Source: Desulfocapsaceae bacterium
GTDB taxonomy: Bacteria > Desulfobacterota > Desulfobulbia > Desulfobulbales > Desulfocapsaceae
DNA: 64,000 bases
Direction of reading: 5' to 3'
Assembly: GCA_028697885.1 (NCBI GenBank)
Contig: JAQVER010000003.1
Coordinates: 1-64,000, forward strand
A program made the translations under genes and the position numbers. Positions within the stretch are counted from its first letter, which is position 1. Every line of letters begins with the position of its first letter. Positions 25,299 through 33,869 of this stretch are shown piece after piece. The notes below the pieces were generated by a model, which was not told the DNA's origin, made no database searches, and was given only the letters and a program-made list of their open reading frames with translations.

Positions 25299-26756
25299 TC
25301 AATATATTTCAGCCCCCTGTGAAGTCGATTTTGCCTGCCATCCGCCCCCCAGGGCCTTGAACAGGGCGATCAGATTGGTGGAAACCATGTGGTTGGACTG
25401 GGCCAGGGTATCCTCGGCAACATAGAGGGAGCGCTGTGCATCCAGTACACTGAGGAAATCGTTTTCTCCAGAGCGATAGAGGGCGGTGGCGAGCTCAACG
25501 GCAGTGCGGTTGGCCGTTACTGCCCGGGTCAGGGCCTGACGATGCTCTTCTTCCTTGGTTGAGGCGATCAGGGCGCTTTCCACTTCTCTCAGGGCGTTCA
25601 GGACGGTTTGTTGGTAGGCCATGAGCTGCTCTTCCTGGACGGCCTCCTGCAGCTCCAGATTGGCACGCCTGCGTCCCATGTCAAAGAGCGGCCAGTTCAG
25701 GGTGGGGCCGAGGGACCAGAAGCTGCTGGCTTGGTTGAAGGTTGAACTGAAGGTGTTGTTCTGGAGACCGAGGCTACCGGTGATGGTGAATTTGGGAAAG
25801 AGATCGGCTCTGGCCACTCCAATGCGGGCAGTGGCTGCATGAATCTTTGCTTCTCCCCTGCGGATGTCCGGTCTCCGCAGGAGGAGGTCCGAGGGTAAAC
25901 CCAGAGGAACCGTGGCCAGCGCCACGGGTAAGGGCACCTTGGATGTCAGTTCTGCCAGCAGGGTGGATGGCTCTCCGCCCAGCAGCAGGCTGAGGGCGTA
26001 GATTGTTTGACGGATCTGTGCCTCAAGGAGCGGGATCTGGCCGGCCGTGGTGGCAGCGAGTGCTTCCGCCCTTACTACGTCAAGTTTGCTGACAAAGCCG
26101 GTGGTGAAAAGTTGGCGGGTCAAGTCGACGCTGTGATCTTGGGCTGTCAGGTTCTGGCGGGCGATGGAAAGTCGTTCTTGCAGAGAACGCAGATTCAGAT
26201 AATTGCTGGCCACTTCGGCGCTCATGCTCACCAGCAGATCGCGCCGGTCTTCTATGGCCGCGTCCAGATCTGCACCTGTTGCCTCGATGCCGCGTCGCAA
26301 TCCGCCGAAGAGATCGATTTCCCAGCCTGCATCAAAGCCCATCTTGTAGAGATTGCTGGTTGTGCTTGCGCTGTTATTTCCGGATTCCGGTGTCTGGCTG
26401 CGCCTGAAGGAGGCTGTAGTGTCAACTGCCGGTCCAAGGTCTGCACCGGCTATCCCCAAGGTAGCGCGGGCCTGACGGATGCGGCTTTTAGCCATTTGCA
26501 GGTCCAGATTGGCCTGCATGGCCCGTTCAATCAGCGAGGTGAGAATCGGATCGTTGAAGATCTTCCACCACTGGGCCAGCTCCTGTTCGGCCGCGTCCGC
26601 GATTTGGGCTGGTGGTTCTTGGCCCAGCCACTGGGAGGAAACCTTGGCCTCAGGACGTTGGAATTCAGGGCCCAGCATGCAGCTGCTCAGCAGAAGCAGG
26701 CAGAGGCAGAGGGCTAAAGAGGTCCGGCAGGGAGTACGGTGCAGGCGAGGGATCAT
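25299..26756 (-). CDS. Outer-membrane efflux lipoprotein, NodT family
   Basis: A 485-residue TolC-like outer-membrane factor. Signal peptide ends in the lipobox LSSC (lipidated C26). Two repeats of the OEP family are visible: the first around DLQMAKSRIRQARATLGIAG, the second around RIGVARADLFPKFTITGSLG. It forms the exit duct of the MacAB-type exporter encoded just upstream on the same strand, from which it is separated by about 50 bases. Confidence 0.9.
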   Translation of the reverse strand: MIPRLHRTPCRTSLALCLCLLLLSSCMLGPEFQRPEAKVSSQWLGQEPPAQIADAAEQELAQWWKIFNDPILTSLIERAMQANLDLQMAKSRIRQARATLGIAGADLGPAVDTTASFRRSQTPESGNNSASTTSNLYKMGFDAGWEIDLFGGLRRGIEATGADLDAAIEDRRDLLVSMSAEVASNYLNLRSLQERLSIARQNLTAQDHSVDLTRQLFTTGFVSKLDVVRAEALAATTAGQIPLLEAQIRQTIYALSLLLGGEPSTLLAELTSKVPLPVALATVPLGLPSDLLLRRPDIRRGEAKIHAATARIGVARADLFPKFTITGSLGLQNNTFSSTFNQASSFWSLGPTLNWPLFDMGRRRANLELQEAVQEEQLMAYQQTVLNALREVESALIASTKEEEHRQALTRAVTANRTAVELATALYRSGENDFLSVLDAQRSLYVAEDTLAQSNHMVSTNLIALFKALGGGWQAKSTSQGAEIY

Positions 26757-26807
26757 GGATTTCCTTGCTCCTTGAAAAAATGGGCTGAAAGGCCGATCCT
26801 TTTGTCT

Positions 26808-28172
26808 CTATTCATAGCGCAGGGCCTCGATGGGGTCAAGGCGTGAGGCCTTCCAGGCCGGGTAAAAGCCGAAGATGATCCCCACCCCGGCAGAGACCAG
26901 CACTGCAGTAGCAATGGCCGCAGGCGAGGTTTGCACCGGCCAGCCGAGCACGAGCCGTACGAGCTGGGAACCGCCATGGCCAAGGACGATGCCCATGGCC
27001 CCGCCGGTGAGGCAGAGGACCACTGCCTCCACCAGAAACTGGCGGAGGATGTCGCGGCCCCGAGCCCCGACGGCCATTCGCAGACCGATTTCCCGAGTCC
27101 TTTCAGTGACGGACACGAGCATGATGTTCATGATTCCGACTCCCCCCACAACCAGTGAGATCATGGCCACGGCCAGCAGCAGATTGGTCATGAGCGTGGT
27201 AGTGGTGGAAAGGGTCGCGGTGAGCTCGGCCATGTCGCGGATGTTGAAGTCCTCGGGTTCTTCGGGGCGGATGCGGTGTCGTTCCCGGAGTACCTCGGAA
27301 ATTTGTTTAATGGCCAGGGGGATCTCTTGTGAACTGTTGGCTGCGGCCATGATCCAGTCGATATTAGCAAAGCGCACCGGCATGGGGTTGTCGGTCTGTT
27401 GGACGCTGGAGCGTTCGGGGTAGAGGCTGGGCTGGGCTGCCGGGTAGAGATTGGACAGGGTATTCACCGTGTCGGAGGTGCTGCCGGTACTCTGGGCAGT
27501 GGCGAGGCTCGTGCCGGTGACCCGGTATTTAATGGTGGTCCAGGGAGCGAGAATGACATCGTCCTGATCATGGCCCATCATGTTAGCGCCTTTGAGGGAG
27601 AGGACTCCGATCACCCGAAAGGAGATGTTCTGGATCCGGATTTCCTTGCCTACGGGCGAGACGCCTTCGAAGAGTTCCCGGGCCAATGTCTGGCCCAGAA
27701 TGCAGACCCGGTTACTGTTGAGCACATCCCGGTCGGTGAAAGGCTCGCCCTCGGCCAGAATGTTCCAGTCCTGCACATCAAGATAGGCGGGAGTGGTGCC
27801 GTAGATGGCGTTAGGAATCCAGTTGCGGTTACCGTAGACCACTTGAGCCCGGGCACGGACCATGGGGGCACCATTGCGGATGGCCGGGCATTCCCGGAGA
27901 ATGGCCTGGCAGTCTTCCGGGGTTAATGTGGTGCTGGTTCCTGCCCCGAAAGAGACACCGCCGCTGGAGGCGGTACCGGGCCGGATCACCAGGACATTGG
28001 CCCCCATGCTGGCGATGGATTTTTTGAGGGCCGTCGAGGCACCGGCACCGATCTCCATCATGGCGATGACTGCGCCCACCCCGATGACAATGCCCAGGGT
28101 GGTGAGCATGGCCCGCATGGGATTACGGCGCAGGGCTTTAAGGGCGATGCCGGCGGTGGCGTAGATCCTCAT
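26808..28172 (-). CDS. MacB-type ABC transporter permease
   Basis: A 454-residue permease with one N-terminal helix (MLTTLGIVIGVGAVIAMMEI), a large periplasmic MacB_PCD domain and three C-terminal helices of the FtsX domain (GGVGIMNIMLVSVTERTREI is diagnostic). Unlike E. coli MacB the ATPase is on a separate gene, which overlaps it by four bases (ATGA). It is a mechanotransmission-type exporter, not a pore. Confidence 0.9.
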   Translation of the reverse strand: MRIYATAGIALKALRRNPMRAMLTTLGIVIGVGAVIAMMEIGAGASTALKKSIASMGANVLVIRPGTASSGGVSFGAGTSTTLTPEDCQAILRECPAIRNGAPMVRARAQVVYGNRNWIPNAIYGTTPAYLDVQDWNILAEGEPFTDRDVLNSNRVCILGQTLARELFEGVSPVGKEIRIQNISFRVIGVLSLKGANMMGHDQDDVILAPWTTIKYRVTGTSLATAQSTGSTSDTVNTLSNLYPAAQPSLYPERSSVQQTDNPMPVRFANIDWIMAAANSSQEIPLAIKQISEVLRERHRIRPEEPEDFNIRDMAELTATLSTTTTLMTNLLLAVAMISLVVGGVGIMNIMLVSVTERTREIGLRMAVGARGRDILRQFLVEAVVLCLTGGAMGIVLGHGGSQLVRLVLGWPVQTSPAAIATAVLVSAGVGIIFGFYPAWKASRLDPIEALRYE

Positions 28173-28894
28173 TGTGCATCTCCCGAGGTTTGGGGAGTTG
28201 GTCCGTCAGTGGCTGCATCATCCTGAATCAGCCCGTCTTCGATGCGGATGATCTGTTTGGCGTGCCCAGCCACCTTTGGGTCGTGGGTCACCATGATAAT
28301 GGTAATGCCGTCTTCGGCATTGAGTTGCTCGAACATCTGGAGCACCTCTTCGCTGGTCCGGGAATCCAGGTTGCCGGTCGGCTCGTCGGCAAAGAGCACG
28401 GGTGGATGGTTGATCAGAGCCCTGGCGATGGCAACCCGCTGCTGCTGGCCGCCGGAGAGTTGCGAAGGGTAGTGGTTCAGCCGATCACCTAATCCCACCC
28501 GGCCCAGCATCTCGGCGGCTCGTTTCCTGGTCTCGGAGCTGCTCAGGTCCTCAACGGAGTAGGAGAGCGGCATGGCCACGTTCTCGATGGCACTGGTTCT
28601 GGCCAGCAGGTTGAAGCTCTGGAAGACGAAACCGAGTTTGCGGTTGCGGAGCAGAGCCCGCTCGTCGGCGGTGAGCAGGGAAGTTTCCTGGCCCTCCAGC
28701 CAGTATTCACCGGCAGTCGGTCGGTCCAGACAGCCCAGAATGTTCATCAGAGTTGATTTTCCGGAGCCGGACGAGCCGGTGAGGGCAACCAGCTCTCCCT
28801 GGCGAATGGCCAGGGAGATGCCTTTCAGTACGGGCACGGAAATATCACCCATCTGGTAGGTCTTTTCGATGCCGTGTAGGGTAATGAGTTCCAT
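28169..28894 (-). CDS. MacB-type ABC transporter ATPase (LolD/MacB class)
   Basis: A 241-residue ATPase: Walker [11 protein letters not shown]-loop FQSFNLLA, signature LSGGQQQR, Walker [13 protein letters not shown] and H-loop THD. I place the start at [10 protein letters not shown], eight bases past the stop of the adaptor gene; the longer reading runs into that gene. The stop overlaps the permease start. Confidence 0.9.
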
Positions 28895-28901
28895 GCGTGC
28901 C

Positions 28902-30179
28902 TTACTTGGTGCCAGAGGTGGAGCTTTTTTTGTTACGGTGCAGGTTCGGGAGGAAAGGATTCCCCCCCTCGTTCTTGCCATTATCAGAGTTCGCCAGGCT
29001 GATGCCGGTGATCACCTGCATTCCCTCGTGCAGATCCGCGCTTTCCACCATGGTGCTGGTCCCGTCGGTGGCTCCGGTCTGGACCTCTATCCGGCTAGGC
29101 TGCTCATTCTCGTCAACCACCCACAGGACCCCGTTGCTCTTGCCTTCCTCGGTTGTCTGGCCCATGGCTGCCGGCCTTTTTCTGGATCCCTCCTCGGCGG
29201 GTGGACTCCAGCGCAGGGCTGCATTGGGTGCTTGCAGGACATTTGTGAGCTGTTGCAGTTGAAACTGGACATTGGCGGTAAGGTAAGGCAGAAGACGACC
29301 ATCACTGTTGTCGGTGGTAATCTCCACCGTGTAAGTGACCACGTTCTGAGTCATGGAGGCGTTGAGTCGAACCTTGCCTACCTCACCCCGGAAGGTCTCG
29401 CCGGGGAAGGCGTCAACAGTGAAGGTTACCGGCAGTCCGGGGTGAATCTTGCCGATATCCGCTTCGTTCACCGCTACCCATACCTGTATGCGGGTGAGAT
29501 CTTTGGCCAACAGGAAGAGGCTGGGGGCGTTGAGGCTCGCCACCACGGTCTGGCCGGTATTGACCCTGCGGTCGATGATGATGCCCTTTACCGGCGAGGT
29601 GATGATGCAGTAGCCGAGGTTGCGCTGGGCACGTTTAAGGGCCGCCTCGGCCTGCTGGATAGCTGCCTCGCTCACCGCCACTTGGGCCAGTGCAATTTTG
29701 TATGCCGATTCGTAACCCACGTAGCTCGATTGTGCCAGGGCCTGGGAGGGGCCGAGTTGTTGGGCTCGCTTCCAGTTCTGCTGCGTCTGACTCAATTCGG
29801 CATTGGCCCGCTGCAGGCCGGCCTTGCTTGATAGTAACTGGGCCTCGGCCTGGGCAACGTCGGAGGCGTAGAGCGAGTCGTCAATTTTGGCAAGTACAGT
29901 GCCTGCCTCTACCACAGAACCGTAGTCCACTGTTTTACCCTTGGCGTCCAAACCAAAAGAGATGATCCGTCCGGCTACCTGGGCACCGACATCAATAACC
30001 TCTTCCGGCTCTACGGTACCGGTGGCGCTGATGGAAACCAGTAGATCACCGCGTGTGATCCCGGTGGTCCGGTAGGCAGTGTTATTCCCTTGGCGGCGGG
30101 TAAACTGCCAGGCTGTAAGGGTGCCGAGGAGTAACACGGCGATGAGGAAAATAAAGAAATTCTTGCCGGGATGTTTCAT
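28902..30179 (-). CDS. MacA-type periplasmic adaptor (HlyD/RND family)
   Basis: A 425-residue adaptor with an N-terminal anchor helix, a lipoyl half-motif (ATGTVEPEEVIDVGAQVAGR), a coiled-coil hairpin (about 100-170) and beta-barrel/membrane-proximal domains. The C-terminal tail is long and low-complexity. It is the first gene of the exporter operon (adaptor, ATPase, permease, outer-membrane factor). Confidence 0.9.
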   Translation of the reverse strand: MKHPGKNFFIFLIAVLLLGTLTAWQFTRRQGNNTAYRTTGITRGDLLVSISATGTVEPEEVIDVGAQVAGRIISFGLDAKGKTVDYGSVVEAGTVLAKIDDSLYASDVAQAEAQLLSSKAGLQRANAELSQTQQNWKRAQQLGPSQALAQSSYVGYESAYKIALAQVAVSEAAIQQAEAALKRAQRNLGYCIITSPVKGIIIDRRVNTGQTVVASLNAPSLFLLAKDLTRIQVWVAVNEADIGKIHPGLPVTFTVDAFPGETFRGEVGKVRLNASMTQNVVTYTVEITTDNSDGRLLPYLTANVQFQLQQLTNVLQAPNAALRWSPPAEEGSRKRPAAMGQTTEEGKSNGVLWVVDENEQPSRIEVQTGATDGTSTMVESADLHEGMQVITGISLANSDNGKNEGGNPFLPNLHRNKKSSTSGTK

Positions 30180-30437: not shown

Positions 30438-30794
30438 TTAATTGCAAGGTCGGTTAACGTATTCGGAATAGAGGTAATTCCCGTACTCATCATAATAATT
30501 GTAGGTGTCACGACAAATCCTCTGGGGCGGTGCTGGCGGTGGAACGTATGGCTGCGATAAGGCCATCACTCCCAAAACTGTACCGAAGATTGCCAGGGGC
30601 ACAATCCAGTCATTGTGATGGTGATGTGTTGATTCATATGGATAATATCCGCGGTGTCTTGCTCCTGAATAGGGTGGTGGGTAATAATGTCCGTATGATC
30701 GGTTCCCATATTGTGGCGGGTGATCGTAATGACCAGTAAAGCCGATAGTTGGACAGAGCAGTAGTATAAGGGCGAAAGCAATCCATTTTTTCAT
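30438..30794 (-). CDS. Small secreted His/Tyr/Pro-rich protein
   Basis: A 118-residue protein with a signal peptide (cleavage likely near residue 20), a Tyr/Pro/His-rich segment including HHHH, a second hydrophobic stretch (DWIVPLAIFGTVLGVMALS) and a tail rich in Tyr with a Cys near each end. No family recognised. The His run could bind metal; this is only a compositional guess. It reads away from the sbt locus. Confidence 0.6.
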   Translation of the reverse strand: MKKWIAFALILLLCPTIGFTGHYDHPPQYGNRSYGHYYPPPYSGARHRGYYPYESTHHHHNDWIVPLAIFGTVLGVMALSQPYVPPPAPPQRICRDTYNYYDEYGNYLYSEYVNRPCN

Positions 30795-31139: not shown

Positions 31140-31168
31140 TTGACAGTGAAAGGGAGAGATAATAAGAT
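31140..31168 (+). promoter_or_regulatory. Sigma-70 promoter of the sbt locus
   Basis: TTGACA (31140-31145), a 17-base spacer and TAAGAT (31163-31168), giving a leader of about 70 bases before the sbtA start. The -35 box is perfect and the spacer ideal. Confidence 0.65.
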
Positions 31169-31246
31169 TTTCCTATGAAATGGCCTGTTGTTATAGCCTT
31201 TTTCTATGTGTTATTTCCCTTATTTTTTTCTTTAGAGGAGGTTTAC

Positions 31247-31606
31247 ATGGCAAACAAAGATCTCAAGAAGTTCCTGGCCAGTCTTAGTGTGGCTGGTTTG
31301 ATTAGTACGGGCGGCATTGCTCTGCCGGGCGCGCATGCTGCGGCGAGTGGCTGAAGCGCAAACAAAGACAGCGCAGGTGGCGCTGAACAAGTAGTAAAAC
31401 CGGCAGGCAGCGGCTGAAGTGGCAGTATGGACAGCGCCGTGAGCGCTGCAACAGAACAGGTTGAAGAAAAAGCAAAAGTGGAAGCAGATACTGAGGAAGT
31501 TGATAAAGCTGCTGATGAGACAAAAGCTGTTGTTGATGAGACAAAAGCTGCCGTTGATGAGACAACGAATACGAAACCTAAAAAAGCTGCCATTGAAGGT
31601 TGTTAA
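31247..31606 (+). CDS. sbtA: Selenocysteine-containing RiPP precursor peptide (SbtA type), two in-frame UGA
   Basis: Starts at ATG five bases after AGAGGAGG. Read with UGA as selenocysteine (U) it gives 119 residues ending EGC. The leader (1-33) begins MANKDLKKFLASLSVAGLIS, hydrophobic and Ala-rich, ending HAAA. Then come two SGUS motifs, with U36 and U57; the second is GSGUSG. The rest is Ala/Glu/Lys/Thr-rich with near repeats of DETKA. Evidence for recoding: the frame stays open and biased through both UGAs, and each UGA is followed 14 bases later by a 6-bp hairpin with GU in its loop. The next gene is a radical SAM/SPASM maturase. From memory this fits the predicted thio(seleno)oxazole peptide type SbtA, processed by SbtM. 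Product and function are unknown. Conventional calling would stop at codon 36 and lose the gene. Confidence 0.88.
31369..31385 (+). promoter_or_regulatory. Bacterial SECIS-like hairpin 1
   Basis: CAGCGC-AGGTG-GCGCTG: a perfect 6-bp stem with a 5-base loop containing GU, starting 14 bases after the UGA at 31352-31354. Bacterial SECIS elements lie inside the coding frame just after UGA and present a GU in the apical loop for SelB. Confidence 0.75.
31432..31448 (+). promoter_or_regulatory. Bacterial SECIS-like hairpin 2
   Basis: CAGCGC-CGTGA-GCGCTG: the same stem as hairpin 1 at exactly the same distance (14 bases) from the UGA at 31415-31417, with a different loop that keeps GU. The conserved stem and distance with varied loop argue for function. 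Confidence 0.75.
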
Positions 31607-31670: not shown

Positions 31671-31707
31671 AATAAAGCCGATGCCCGGATGAGGTGTCGG
31701 CTTTATT
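31671..31707 (+). terminator. Intra-operon terminator between sbtA and sbtM
   Basis: AATAAAGCCGA (31671-31681) pairs with TCGGCTTTATT (31697-31707), followed by TATTTTAT. It ends 27 bases before sbtM, so it probably lets a minority of transcripts continue, giving more precursor than maturase, as is usual in RiPP operons. Confidence 0.75.
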
Positions 31708-31734: not shown

Positions 31735-33324
31735 ATGCCCGTGATCTCTCACCAACTTCCACCTCTGAAAACGCTTTATCCAATCACCAGCCGTTTTCTT
31801 GTTCATGATCCTGGATTTGATACACCTCACGATCTCTCAGGTTTTATACGGGCCAGGCCTGAAATCTGTCCTGAATACCCCTTTCTTGCTGACCTGGCAG
31901 CCGTTGAATATGCCCAATATTGTGTTTCAAAAATAGCAGGGCCAAAGGGTGAGGTGACGTTGAAATGTACAGTGAATCCGGCCTTGGAGATTGTACCCGT
32001 CCATTGGCATCATTTATTACCATTTCTTGACGATCAGACCATTGTCCCGGAGATGGGTGACTCGTGCGTTCTGGTGTTCAAAAGGCCGGGAACAGAAGTT
32101 GTGCAGACGATTACCGCATCAGGTCATGATCTCCTGGCTCTGAAAATAGTCAGCGAAGAAATAGGGTCCCAGGAGGCAGCCAGCTTGGCAGGTGTCACCG
32201 TGGGTGTTATTGATGATATCCTTGCTGCCGCGGTGCAGCGCGGCCTGCTGCTTTCTCCTGGATCTCTCCTCATTCGTCCGGATTCTTTTCCCCATGGCAA
32301 GAATATTGATCCACGCTATTTTTCGGCCCCCACTTTTACCTTGCAGTGGCATATTACCCAGGTCTGTGATCTGCACTGCCGTCACTGTTATGATCGCAGT
32401 GATCGTAAGGCCATGGACTTATCGCAAGGGATCAGGGTGCTTGATGACCTCTATGATTTCTGTAAGTCCCATCATGTCTTCACGCAGGTGACTTTTACCG
32501 GTGGTAACCCCTTGCTCTATCCTCATTTTAACGAACTATATAAGGAAGCGGCAGATCGAGGATTTATGACGGCTATTCTCGGGAATCCCATGCCGCGCAG
32601 GCGGATTGAGGAGATTCTTGCCCTGCAGAAACCTGAATTTTATCAAGTGAGTCTGGAAGGGTTAGCCGCGCATAACGATTATATCCGCGGCGCTGGACAT
32701 TTTGAGCGGACGCTTGATTTTCTTGACCTCTTGCGGGAATGTGGGATATATTCCATGGTCATGTTGACCTTGACCAGGGCGAACATTGATGAGGTTCTGG
32801 AATTGGCCGAAATACTGCGGGGAAGAGTGGATCTGTTTACCTTTAATCGTCTTGCCATGGTTGGTGAGGGAGCGGATTTGGCCTCGGTTGCACCGGAGGT
32901 CTTTCCCGGATTTTTACAGGAGTATCTGCAGGCGGCGGCAAAAAATCCATCCATGGGTGTAAAAGACAATCTGTTCAATCTGCTGCGCTATGAACAGGCT
33001 ATTCCGTATCGTGGAGGTTGTGCCGGGTATGGTTGTGGTGCGGGGTTTAATTTCGTTTCGCTTCTGCCTGATGGTGAGGTCCATGCCTGTCGCAAGCTGC
33101 CTTCGTTGATTGGGAATATGTACCAGCAATCCTTGGGGGAAATCTATCATGGTTTGCCGGCAGAGCGGTATCGTCAGGGCTCTGCTGCCTGTCAGGATTG
33201 TGAGATCCGGCCCCTCTGCGGGGGGTGTCTGGCGGTGGCTTATGGGTATGGTCGTGATATCTTCCATGATGTTGATCCCTATTGTTGGAAGCTTACGGAA
33301 ACAAAAATGGTTAGTGGAATCTGA
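31735..33324 (+). CDS. sbtM: Radical SAM/SPASM peptide maturase, SbtM type
   Basis: A 529-residue protein. Residues 1-195 form a leader-binding-like N-terminal region; the radical SAM motif is CDLHCRHC (C211, C215, C218), followed by TFTGGNPLLYP. The C-terminal SPASM domain has cysteines from about 429 (GGCAGYGCGAGF), LPDGEVHACRKLP, CQDC, CGGC and DPYCW, enough for two auxiliary clusters. This layout is that of peptide-modifying enzymes. Position right after the selenopeptide gene, with AGGA before its ATG, identifies the peptide as the probable substrate. The modification proposed for the family (thio- or selenoazole-type) is prediction, not shown here. Confidence 0.85.
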   Translation: MPVISHQLPPLKTLYPITSRFLVHDPGFDTPHDLSGFIRARPEICPEYPFLADLAAVEYAQYCVSKIAGPKGEVTLKCTVNPALEIVPVHWHHLLPFLDDQTIVPEMGDSCVLVFKRPGTEVVQTITASGHDLLALKIVSEEIGSQEAASLAGVTVGVIDDILAAAVQRGLLLSPGSLLIRPDSFPHGKNIDPRYFSAPTFTLQWHITQVCDLHCRHCYDRSDRKAMDLSQGIRVLDDLYDFCKSHHVFTQVTFTGGNPLLYPHFNELYKEAADRGFMTAILGNPMPRRRIEEILALQKPEFYQVSLEGLAAHNDYIRGAGHFERTLDFLDLLRECGIYSMVMLTLTRANIDEVLELAEILRGRVDLFTFNRLAMVGEGADLASVAPEVFPGFLQEYLQAAAKNPSMGVKDNLFNLLRYEQAIPYRGGCAGYGCGAGFNFVSLLPDGEVHACRKLPSLIGNMYQQSLGEIYHGLPAERYRQGSAACQDCEIRPLCGGCLAVAYGYGRDIFHDVDPYCWKLTETKMVSGI

Positions 33325-33341: not shown

Positions 33342-33869
33342 ATGCGGCAGAGAGATCCCGAGTTGAAGTATTGTCCGGTTTGTGATGAAGAATATCGGAC
33401 TGATATCAAGATGTGCGCTGTCTGTGCGGTGGAGTTGATTATTGGCCATGAAAAGATAGCTGCTGAAACAGTCCTTCAGCAGAAGAAGGTGGCTCGGTCT
33501 ATGGAATTGTTAGTGAATGATGATCTGGTGAACATTCGCAAAGGGCCATTGCTGGAGATGAAAAACTTACAGCATATCCTGGCCAAAGAACATATTCCGG
33601 CTTTGATTGCAGGCGAAAAAAAAGGCAACTGTGGCAAAGGATGTTGTGGAACGGAATTATATCTGCAGATCAGAAGAGAAGATGGTGAAGTGGCCATGGA
33701 GGCGTTGGCCAGGGAATTTAAAAGAACTACCGCCCTTGACCATCATGATTTGAGTCATATCCGTTCCGTGTATGATCCCGGAGCTGGCCAGACGGTGTGT
33801 CCGGCTTGTGGATTTAGTTTTTCCCCAACCACCACTACCTGCCCGGATTGCGGGCTCTGTTTTGCATGA
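33342..33869 (+). CDS. Zinc-ribbon protein with DUF2007-like domain
   Basis: A 175-residue protein: N-terminal zinc knuckles CPVC and CAVC, a central DUF2007-like part (ELLVNDDLVNIRKGPLLEMK to REDGEVAMEALARE), an inserted Cys-rich GNCGKGCCG segment, and a C-terminal ribbon CPAC/CPDC. AAGGAG precedes the start, 18 bases after sbtM, so it belongs to the same operon, which then terminates. DUF2007 proteins are thought to act in regulation or protein binding; here it could be a handling or sensing partner of the peptide pathway. No enzyme motif was seen. Confidence 0.75.
   Translation: MRQRDPELKYCPVCDEEYRTDIKMCAVCAVELIIGHEKIAAETVLQQKKVARSMELLVNDDLVNIRKGPLLEMKNLQHILAKEHIPALIAGEKKGNCGKGCCGTELYLQIRREDGEVAMEALAREFKRTTALDHHDLSHIRSVYDPGAGQTVCPACGFSFSPTTTTCPDCGLCFA

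Follow-up and report, generated by a model that had tools for sequence, protein, structure and literature searches.

A probable SbtA/SbtM selenopeptide locus in a Desulfocapsaceae genome: two in-frame UGA codons, each followed by its own hairpin

Within a 64,000-nucleotide stretch of Desulfocapsaceae DNA (the window: contig JAQVER010000003.1, positions 1 to 64,000), a small frame beginning at position 31247 runs through two UGA codons and lies just upstream of a gene for a radical SAM/SPASM enzyme. Is such a frame a gene; what do its UGAs encode; how is the product modified; and where does it go? We think it highly probable that the locus is an SbtA/SbtM selenopeptide system, in which the UGAs of sbtA are likely read as selenocysteine, each with a hairpin of its own, and the maturase SbtM would oxidise the selenocysteines to selenooxazole.

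Reading frame and UGA codons of sbtA

Re-reading the sequence bears out the frame proposed in the initial annotation: it opens with ATG at 31247, crosses UGA at codons 36 and 57, both surrounded by an SGUS motif, and ends at UAA after codon 119.

31234..31241, + strand: Shine-Dalgarno-like AGAGGAGG, 5 nt upstream of the ATG (read from the sequence)
31247..31606, + strand: sbtA, 119-aa precursor with two in-frame UGA (ORF reading, TIGR04081, genus comparison)
31352..31354, + strand: UGA codon 36, predicted selenocysteine (ORF reading, genus comparison)
31415..31417, + strand: UGA codon 57, predicted selenocysteine (ORF reading, genus comparison)

With UGA taken as a stop the ORF has 35 codons, and all eight database relatives of SbtA at E <= 0.001 (P0002-P0009, from 69 candidates) show Trp at the UGA places, which is likely a trace of gene calling with the wrong code; both observations fit the suggestion that conventional calling loses the gene.

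Comparison within the genus indicates that the frame is under purifying selection beyond both UGAs. Specifically, i) UGA is retained at 23 of 23 positions in the 12 members read, one of which is without the first unit; ii) none of the 23 has become TAA or TAG, whereas the terminal stop varies (TAA in 9, TGA in 3); and iii) pN/pS, 0.21 ahead of the first UGA, is 0.35 between the two and 0.38 beyond the second, which is not what would be expected of homologues with ordinary stops and no conserved frame beyond them, the outcome that the initial annotation had named as telling against its reading. Nor is UGA a sense codon throughout the genome, because sbtM, the adjoining gene, terminates in UGA. 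Beyond the genus, SbtA sequences were read from 111 of 120 TIGR04081 matches, the window included, the nine outside these counts being eight under the cut-off (among them G013 of the same genus) and one above it (G080). At least one motif UGA is present in 105 of the 110 counted precursors, and the number per precursor, obtained with a simple rule for the last stop and leaving out one precursor that ends at a contig end, is 0 in 5, 1 in 12, 2 in 49, 3 in 24, 4 in 17, 5 in 2, and 6 in 1.

Family assignment and distribution

Both genes exceed curated NCBIfam cut-offs, in keeping with the initial assignment to an SbtA/SbtM selenopeptide system: SbtA, with C substituted for U, scores 44.5 bits against TIGR04081 over residues 1-27 (cut-off 30.5) in the search proposed at the outset, and SbtM scores 664.7 bits against TIGR04082 (cut-off 350). 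The novelty implied at the same time was overstated, since curated models exist and a 2026 review lists the family (TIGR04081, SGUG, two selenocysteines). The locus is another member of an already known family.

Among 193 genomes of the order, the present one included, SbtA was found in 104 (E <= 1e-3) and SbtM in 99 (E <= 1e-90). The two occur together: both are present in 96 genomes, SbtA alone in 8, SbtM alone in 3, and neither in 86. In a sample of 395 genomes from the phylum, 39 carry the SbtA leader. Judged by gene order and by SbtM identity (87%), Desulfocapsa sp. isolate N3_15 (L125) is one of the nearest named relatives. The two genes can lie apart, as in genus g6 (in G037 by ~0.6 Mb), and several SbtA may share one SbtM (G099 has four SbtA matches). 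The class is thus widespread yet little studied, gene finding loses sbtA, and the available parts of the SbtA/SbtM literature examined state no function for the peptides.

Conservation of the hairpins

Fourteen nucleotides after each sbtA UGA stands CAGCGC, a 5-nt loop, and GCGCTG, so that the recurrent 6-bp stem, the 14-nt spacing, and the loops AGGTG and CGTGA are all as first described.

31369..31385, + strand: bSECIS-like hairpin 1, 6 bp, loop AGGTG starting 20 nt after the UGA (covariance model, SECIS rules)
31432..31448, + strand: bSECIS-like hairpin 2, 6 bp, loop CGTGA starting 20 nt after the UGA (covariance model)

Both hairpins (stem 6, loop 5 with G as its second base, spacing 20 nt, energies -9.1 and -8.7 kcal/mol) satisfy the bacterial SECIS rules as quoted in the accessible text of PMC13188914. 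Folding energy of a single hairpin was dropped as proof, not being significant: shuffled sequences fold as well as the 44-nt windows do (z -1.34 and 0.04), and 4 and 26 of 200 shuffles equal the 25-nt windows. Recurrence of the stem may come partly from duplication of the core unit. The sbtA hairpins alone are unremarkable; the case for them rests on relatives.

In the family as a whole, a hairpin of -5 kcal/mol or below follows 250 of 269 motif UGAs, compared with 11.7% of mononucleotide shuffles; the exact geometry of the two sbtA hairpins recurs at 153 of 269 motif UGAs and at 153 of 9967 other codons; and a correctly spaced hairpin accompanies 237 of the 269 motif UGAs but only 4 of 16 motif Cys codons, two of which (L077, L085) are doubtful. 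Alignment A1, comprising 91 sites from other genera, has 97.1% of cells paired, 112 cells changed on both sides, and a covariation of 0.549 (0.271 in shuffles); two of its five measures do not rise above shuffles, namely double-change pairs (62 of 500 as high) and pair types (325 of 500). As these 91 sites were hand-picked from 162, all 162 unselected sites were counted too: with the geometry kept fixed 86.1% are paired, and sliding the partner gives 22-48%. The covariance model R1, built from the 91 sites and containing no member of this genus, carries out the comparison that the initial annotation had suggested and recovers both sbtA hairpins in a search of the 3.88-Mb genome, hairpin 1 with 47.3 bits (E 3.6e-6) and hairpin 2 with 42.4 bits (E 3.5e-5), the next match having E 3.26 among the best 150 of 1240 candidates; over the 64-kb window the third match has E 0.8.

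A stop codon falls within six codons at 80 sites, some of whose UGA 'stops' may themselves be selenocysteine codons (for example in L025, L069, and L094). Of the 80, 72 retain the hairpin, and 61 have it entirely past the stop, where it would encode nothing and only the RNA would be selected. Judged from these sites and from the alignments, the hairpin after UGA is conserved as an RNA structure.

SbtA loci outside the genus, L079, L057, L051, L080, and L090 among them, have C-terminal SGUSG units with a stop three codons after the presumed selenocysteine UGA (UGA in 21, UAA in 15, UAG in 1), and the hairpin lies past the stop in most. Where that stop is UGA, the loop of one hairpin stands ~20 nt from a UGA that is apparently selenocysteine and ~11 nt from a UGA that is apparently a stop. 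The family offers natural tests of UGA decoding, both in messages with several UGA-hairpin units (up to six among the 110 precursors) and in these C-terminal units, where one hairpin follows a predicted selenocysteine UGA (~20 nt) and a UGA that is a probable stop (~11 nt).

Decoding genes and a second UCA tRNA

Of the four decoding genes whose presence the initial annotation had proposed to check, three are clearly there: selC (70.6 bits; ARAGORN reads a UCA anticodon), selA (630.5 bits, over the cut-off), and selD (376.3 bits, over the cut-off). The fourth, selB, is seen only as a below-cut-off C-terminal half, matching model positions 221-580 with 107.6 bits (cut-off 242.25), and contig C142 ends inside the gene. 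The combined absence of selC and selB, named at the outset as counting against selenocysteine, is therefore not what the genome presents, selC being found and selB partly seen.

The selD gene (L123; C102:6495-7436 of the same genome) has an in-frame UGA of its own, in AAGUAAKLG, at what we take to be the active-site selenocysteine place of SelD, and is itself a predicted selenoprotein gene; we take this UGA as a probable second sign of selenocysteine decoding. Co-occurrence of selC with SbtA was discarded as proof, being uninformative: selC was found in 93 of 104 SbtA genomes and 73 of 89 others (p 0.15), 11 SbtA genomes showing none, and there is no association because most genomes have selC (166 of 193).

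The genome also holds a second tRNA-Sec-like gene (C82:16686-16784; L002 1501-1599, minus strand) with 58.7 bits, a UCA anticodon, and U before CCA, on which ARAGORN makes no call. It sits between hdrA-like and mvhD-like ORFs (named by eye), an arrangement also present in G003, G006, G009, G015, and G016. The available text of PMC7609411 describes selC* as a tRNA-Cys, in some cases with a UCA anticodon and U73, in delta-proteobacteria among others. Among the 12 SbtA-bearing genomes of the genus, five (G002, G004, G005, G008, G010) have canonical selC only, so that the second tRNA seems dispensable for the family; four (G000, G003, G006, G009) have both; in G016, whose SbtA nevertheless retains both UGAs, only the second type was found; G011 shows only another weak tRNA match, and G001 none. 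Another tRNA-like gene, unlike both selC types, occurs in G011 (L222) and G006 (L228), with anticodon loop CTTCAGC / CTTCAGA, read as UCA by eye.

What the UGA codons encode

We infer that the sbtA UGAs of this genome specify selenocysteine, and three other readings have to be set against this. Were they true stops, sbtA would yield a 35-aa peptide and the remainder would be a decayed gene or a non-coding RNA, as might be argued from the 35-codon ORF and from the UGA stop of sbtM next door; but a final stop that varies while none of the 23 genus positions turns to TAA or TAG, selection on the frame after both UGAs, and the 105 of 110 precursors in relatives that hold at least one such UGA make this exceedingly improbable. 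We give almost no credence to UGA as a Trp codon of the genome (code 4 or 25) with incidental hairpins: the Trp residues of P0002-P0009 are what that reading would predict, but UGA ends sbtM, and sbtA too in 3 of the 12 genus members, and covariation is seen in the hairpins that follow UGA.

The third reading is insertion of Cys by a selC*-like UCA tRNA, giving a thiooxazole peptide without selenium. The genome carries the hdrA-mvhD tRNA with the very features, a UCA anticodon and a U before CCA, described for some selC* tRNAs (PMC7609411, in the part available); G016 shows only this second type; and Cys is also a substrate of the characterised SbtM, according to the text of PMC11002830 accessible to us. 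We nevertheless hold it to be very unlikely, given that five of the 12 SbtA-bearing genus genomes have canonical selC only, that motif Cys codons mostly go without a hairpin, that selA is present together with a selD containing an in-frame UGA, and that Cys charging of the hdrA-mvhD tRNA is putative. On the selenocysteine reading, SelB would bind each hairpin and deliver Sec-tRNA(Sec) to the UGA that precedes its loop by 20 nt.

The maturase SbtM

The ORF downstream of sbtA is, as first described, a radical SAM/SPASM maturase, matching PF04055 and PF13186 in addition to TIGR04082.

31735..33324, + strand: sbtM, radical SAM/SPASM maturase, 529 aa, stop UGA (TIGR04082, PF04055, PF13186)
31735..32265, + strand: SbtM N-terminal domain, residues 1-177, fold of MNIO partners (NGO1945, TglHI chain A; predicted structure)
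32353..32811, + strand: SbtM radical SAM domain, residues 207-359, CxxxCxxC at 211-218 (domain search, alignment)
33034..33204, + strand: SbtM SPASM domain, residues 434-490 (domain search)

In 28 SbtM sequences C211, C215, and C218 are invariant, as are C429, C434, C452, C486, C489, C495, C498, and C517. Because VIA-align of whole SbtM barely tested the N-terminal part, that part was folded alone, and in the predicted structure it has the PME partner fold. The Pfam DUF2063 signature was detected in 0 of 28 SbtM at E <= 0.01, which places the domain nearer to the 'type 2' partners. Among the matches listed, we found no link between SbtM and DUF2063-type partners in the accessible parts of the partner and thiooxazole literature, where it may be published. 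According to the portion of PMC11002830 at hand, a characterised SbtM takes Cys and Sec substrates and carries out a -4H oxidation to thio(seleno)oxazole. By analogy, the partner-like domain would hold the SbtA leader, while the radical SAM centre would remove four hydrogens per selenocysteine and leave a selenooxazole ring. The new element here is the tie, made through a structure prediction, of SbtM to the partner fold, together with a signal-like leader on SbtA.

Leader and export

31247..31339, + strand: SbtA leader, residues 1-31, ends AHA; predicted Sec signal peptide (inference; AxA/lipobox in relatives)

The leader opens with charged residues, continues with a hydrophobic stretch, and ends in AHA ahead of the core; it may, more tentatively than the readings above, be a Sec signal peptide cleaved after AHA (residue 31). 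After modification it would then work as such, and the modified 88-residue chain would act outside the cytoplasm. An AxA motif lies within residues 21-40 in 66 of the 110 precursors (a raw count, with no chance control), and a lipobox-type Cys at residues 22-29 of 19 of 102 leaders (shuffle mean 4.8, maximum 13 in 2000), although these leaders are not independent because 7 of their 18 genomes belong to one genus. One export signal replacing another argues for export. The other reading is that the system is real but the leader serves SbtM recognition only, the product staying in the cytoplasm, e.g. to store selenium or to take part in redox chemistry. Across 51 sbtM loci, many of them incomplete, neither a conserved protease nor a conserved exporter was seen nearby (the ORFs common to more than 14 of the 51, judged from one example per cluster, overlap sbtM or are antisense to sbtA), and the available text of PMC12538549 reports no conserved protease at its thiooxazole cluster either. 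The SbtM domain, moreover, is without the DUF2063 signature of the partners that are paired with signal peptides; in the part of PMC12452194 available, the precursors that accompany 'type 2' partners have no signal peptide, and the nearness of the SbtM domain to this type speaks against the export step. Set against the AxA and lipobox counts, a cytoplasmic product seems to us rather unlikely.

Relationship to known systems

The closest known system is the SbtA/SbtM thio(seleno)oxazole RiPP ('selenobacteriocin', TIGR04081/TIGR04082), for which Lewis et al. 2021 is cited by PMC13188914, PMC11002830, PMC12538549, and PMC13097082, as far as their accessible text goes. Leader model and maturase model are the same, and so are the UGA in an SG-U motif followed by a hairpin and the number of selenocysteines, two, which in the present SbtA are predicted. 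The present SbtA differs in having SGUS at both sites, where the table of the 2026 review, in the part available, gives SGUG for the family; in its charged C-terminal part ending EGC, as in the 12 genus members read; and in its host, which is known as an assembled genome only. Other radical SAM/SPASM peptide maturases, SkfB, CteB (which we take structures 5why/5wgg to be), ChlB, SuiB, and anSME, are 16-21% identical to SbtM and perform other chemistry.

Bufferins, captophorins, and oxazolin, made by an MNIO with a PME partner (PMC12452194, PMC13097082, PMC12538549, PMC13419390, each in the excerpts available), work partly in the same way: one long precursor carries a number of (seleno)Cys residues that are oxidised, there is a partner fold with RRE and a thiooxazole product, and the leader is possibly a signal peptide. 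They differ in that SbtM is a radical SAM enzyme with the partner-like domain fused to it, that the modified residue is predicted to be selenocysteine, and that the DUF2063 signature of the partners is missing from all 28 SbtM. On the strength of its absorbance near 302-305 nm, excerpts of PMC13097082 and PMC12538549 place the SbtM product beside thiooxazole peptides, and they report that thiooxazole peptides bind copper. It is possible, and we propose it tentatively, that SbtA/SbtM is an anaerobic selenium branch of the bufferin/captophorin way, with an exported chain that binds soft metals, e.g. Cu(I). A signal-peptide precursor would then carry repeated core units, each with its own SECIS; the DUF2063/RRE-like domain fused to the radical SAM enzyme would hold it; and SbtM would make selenooxazoles without oxygen, as iron oxidases make thiooxazoles with oxygen. 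If true, the same domain and ring on two unrelated oxidation engines would amount to a striking catalyst swap. Given the predicted partner-type fold in SbtM and the signal-like leader of SbtA, metal binding is the first function to test.

Other features of the neighbourhood

31671..31707, + strand: terminator-like hairpin of 15 pairs in the sbtA-sbtM interval (pattern match only)

Upstream of sbtA, a promoter-like match at 31140-31168 was set aside, such matches being no commoner than in shuffles (4 vs 4.4). Beyond sbtM, the ORF at 33342-33869 encodes a zinc-ribbon (seleno)protein DG in its Cys form (NF049953, 223.7 bits; GCCG), the family motif being GUxG in the available text of PMC13188914; it was rejected as a third component of the system, since it stands beside sbtM in only 6 of 51 loci, all with SbtM at least ~79% identical. 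On the minus strand upstream of sbtA, 30438-30794 encodes a small, exported-looking His-rich protein with no NCBIfam match at E <= 0.001 and a relative in 4 of 51 SbtM loci. Further upstream on the same strand, 25299-30179 holds an efflux-like set of ORFs that, named by eye, comprise an outer membrane factor, permease, ATPase, and membrane fusion protein.
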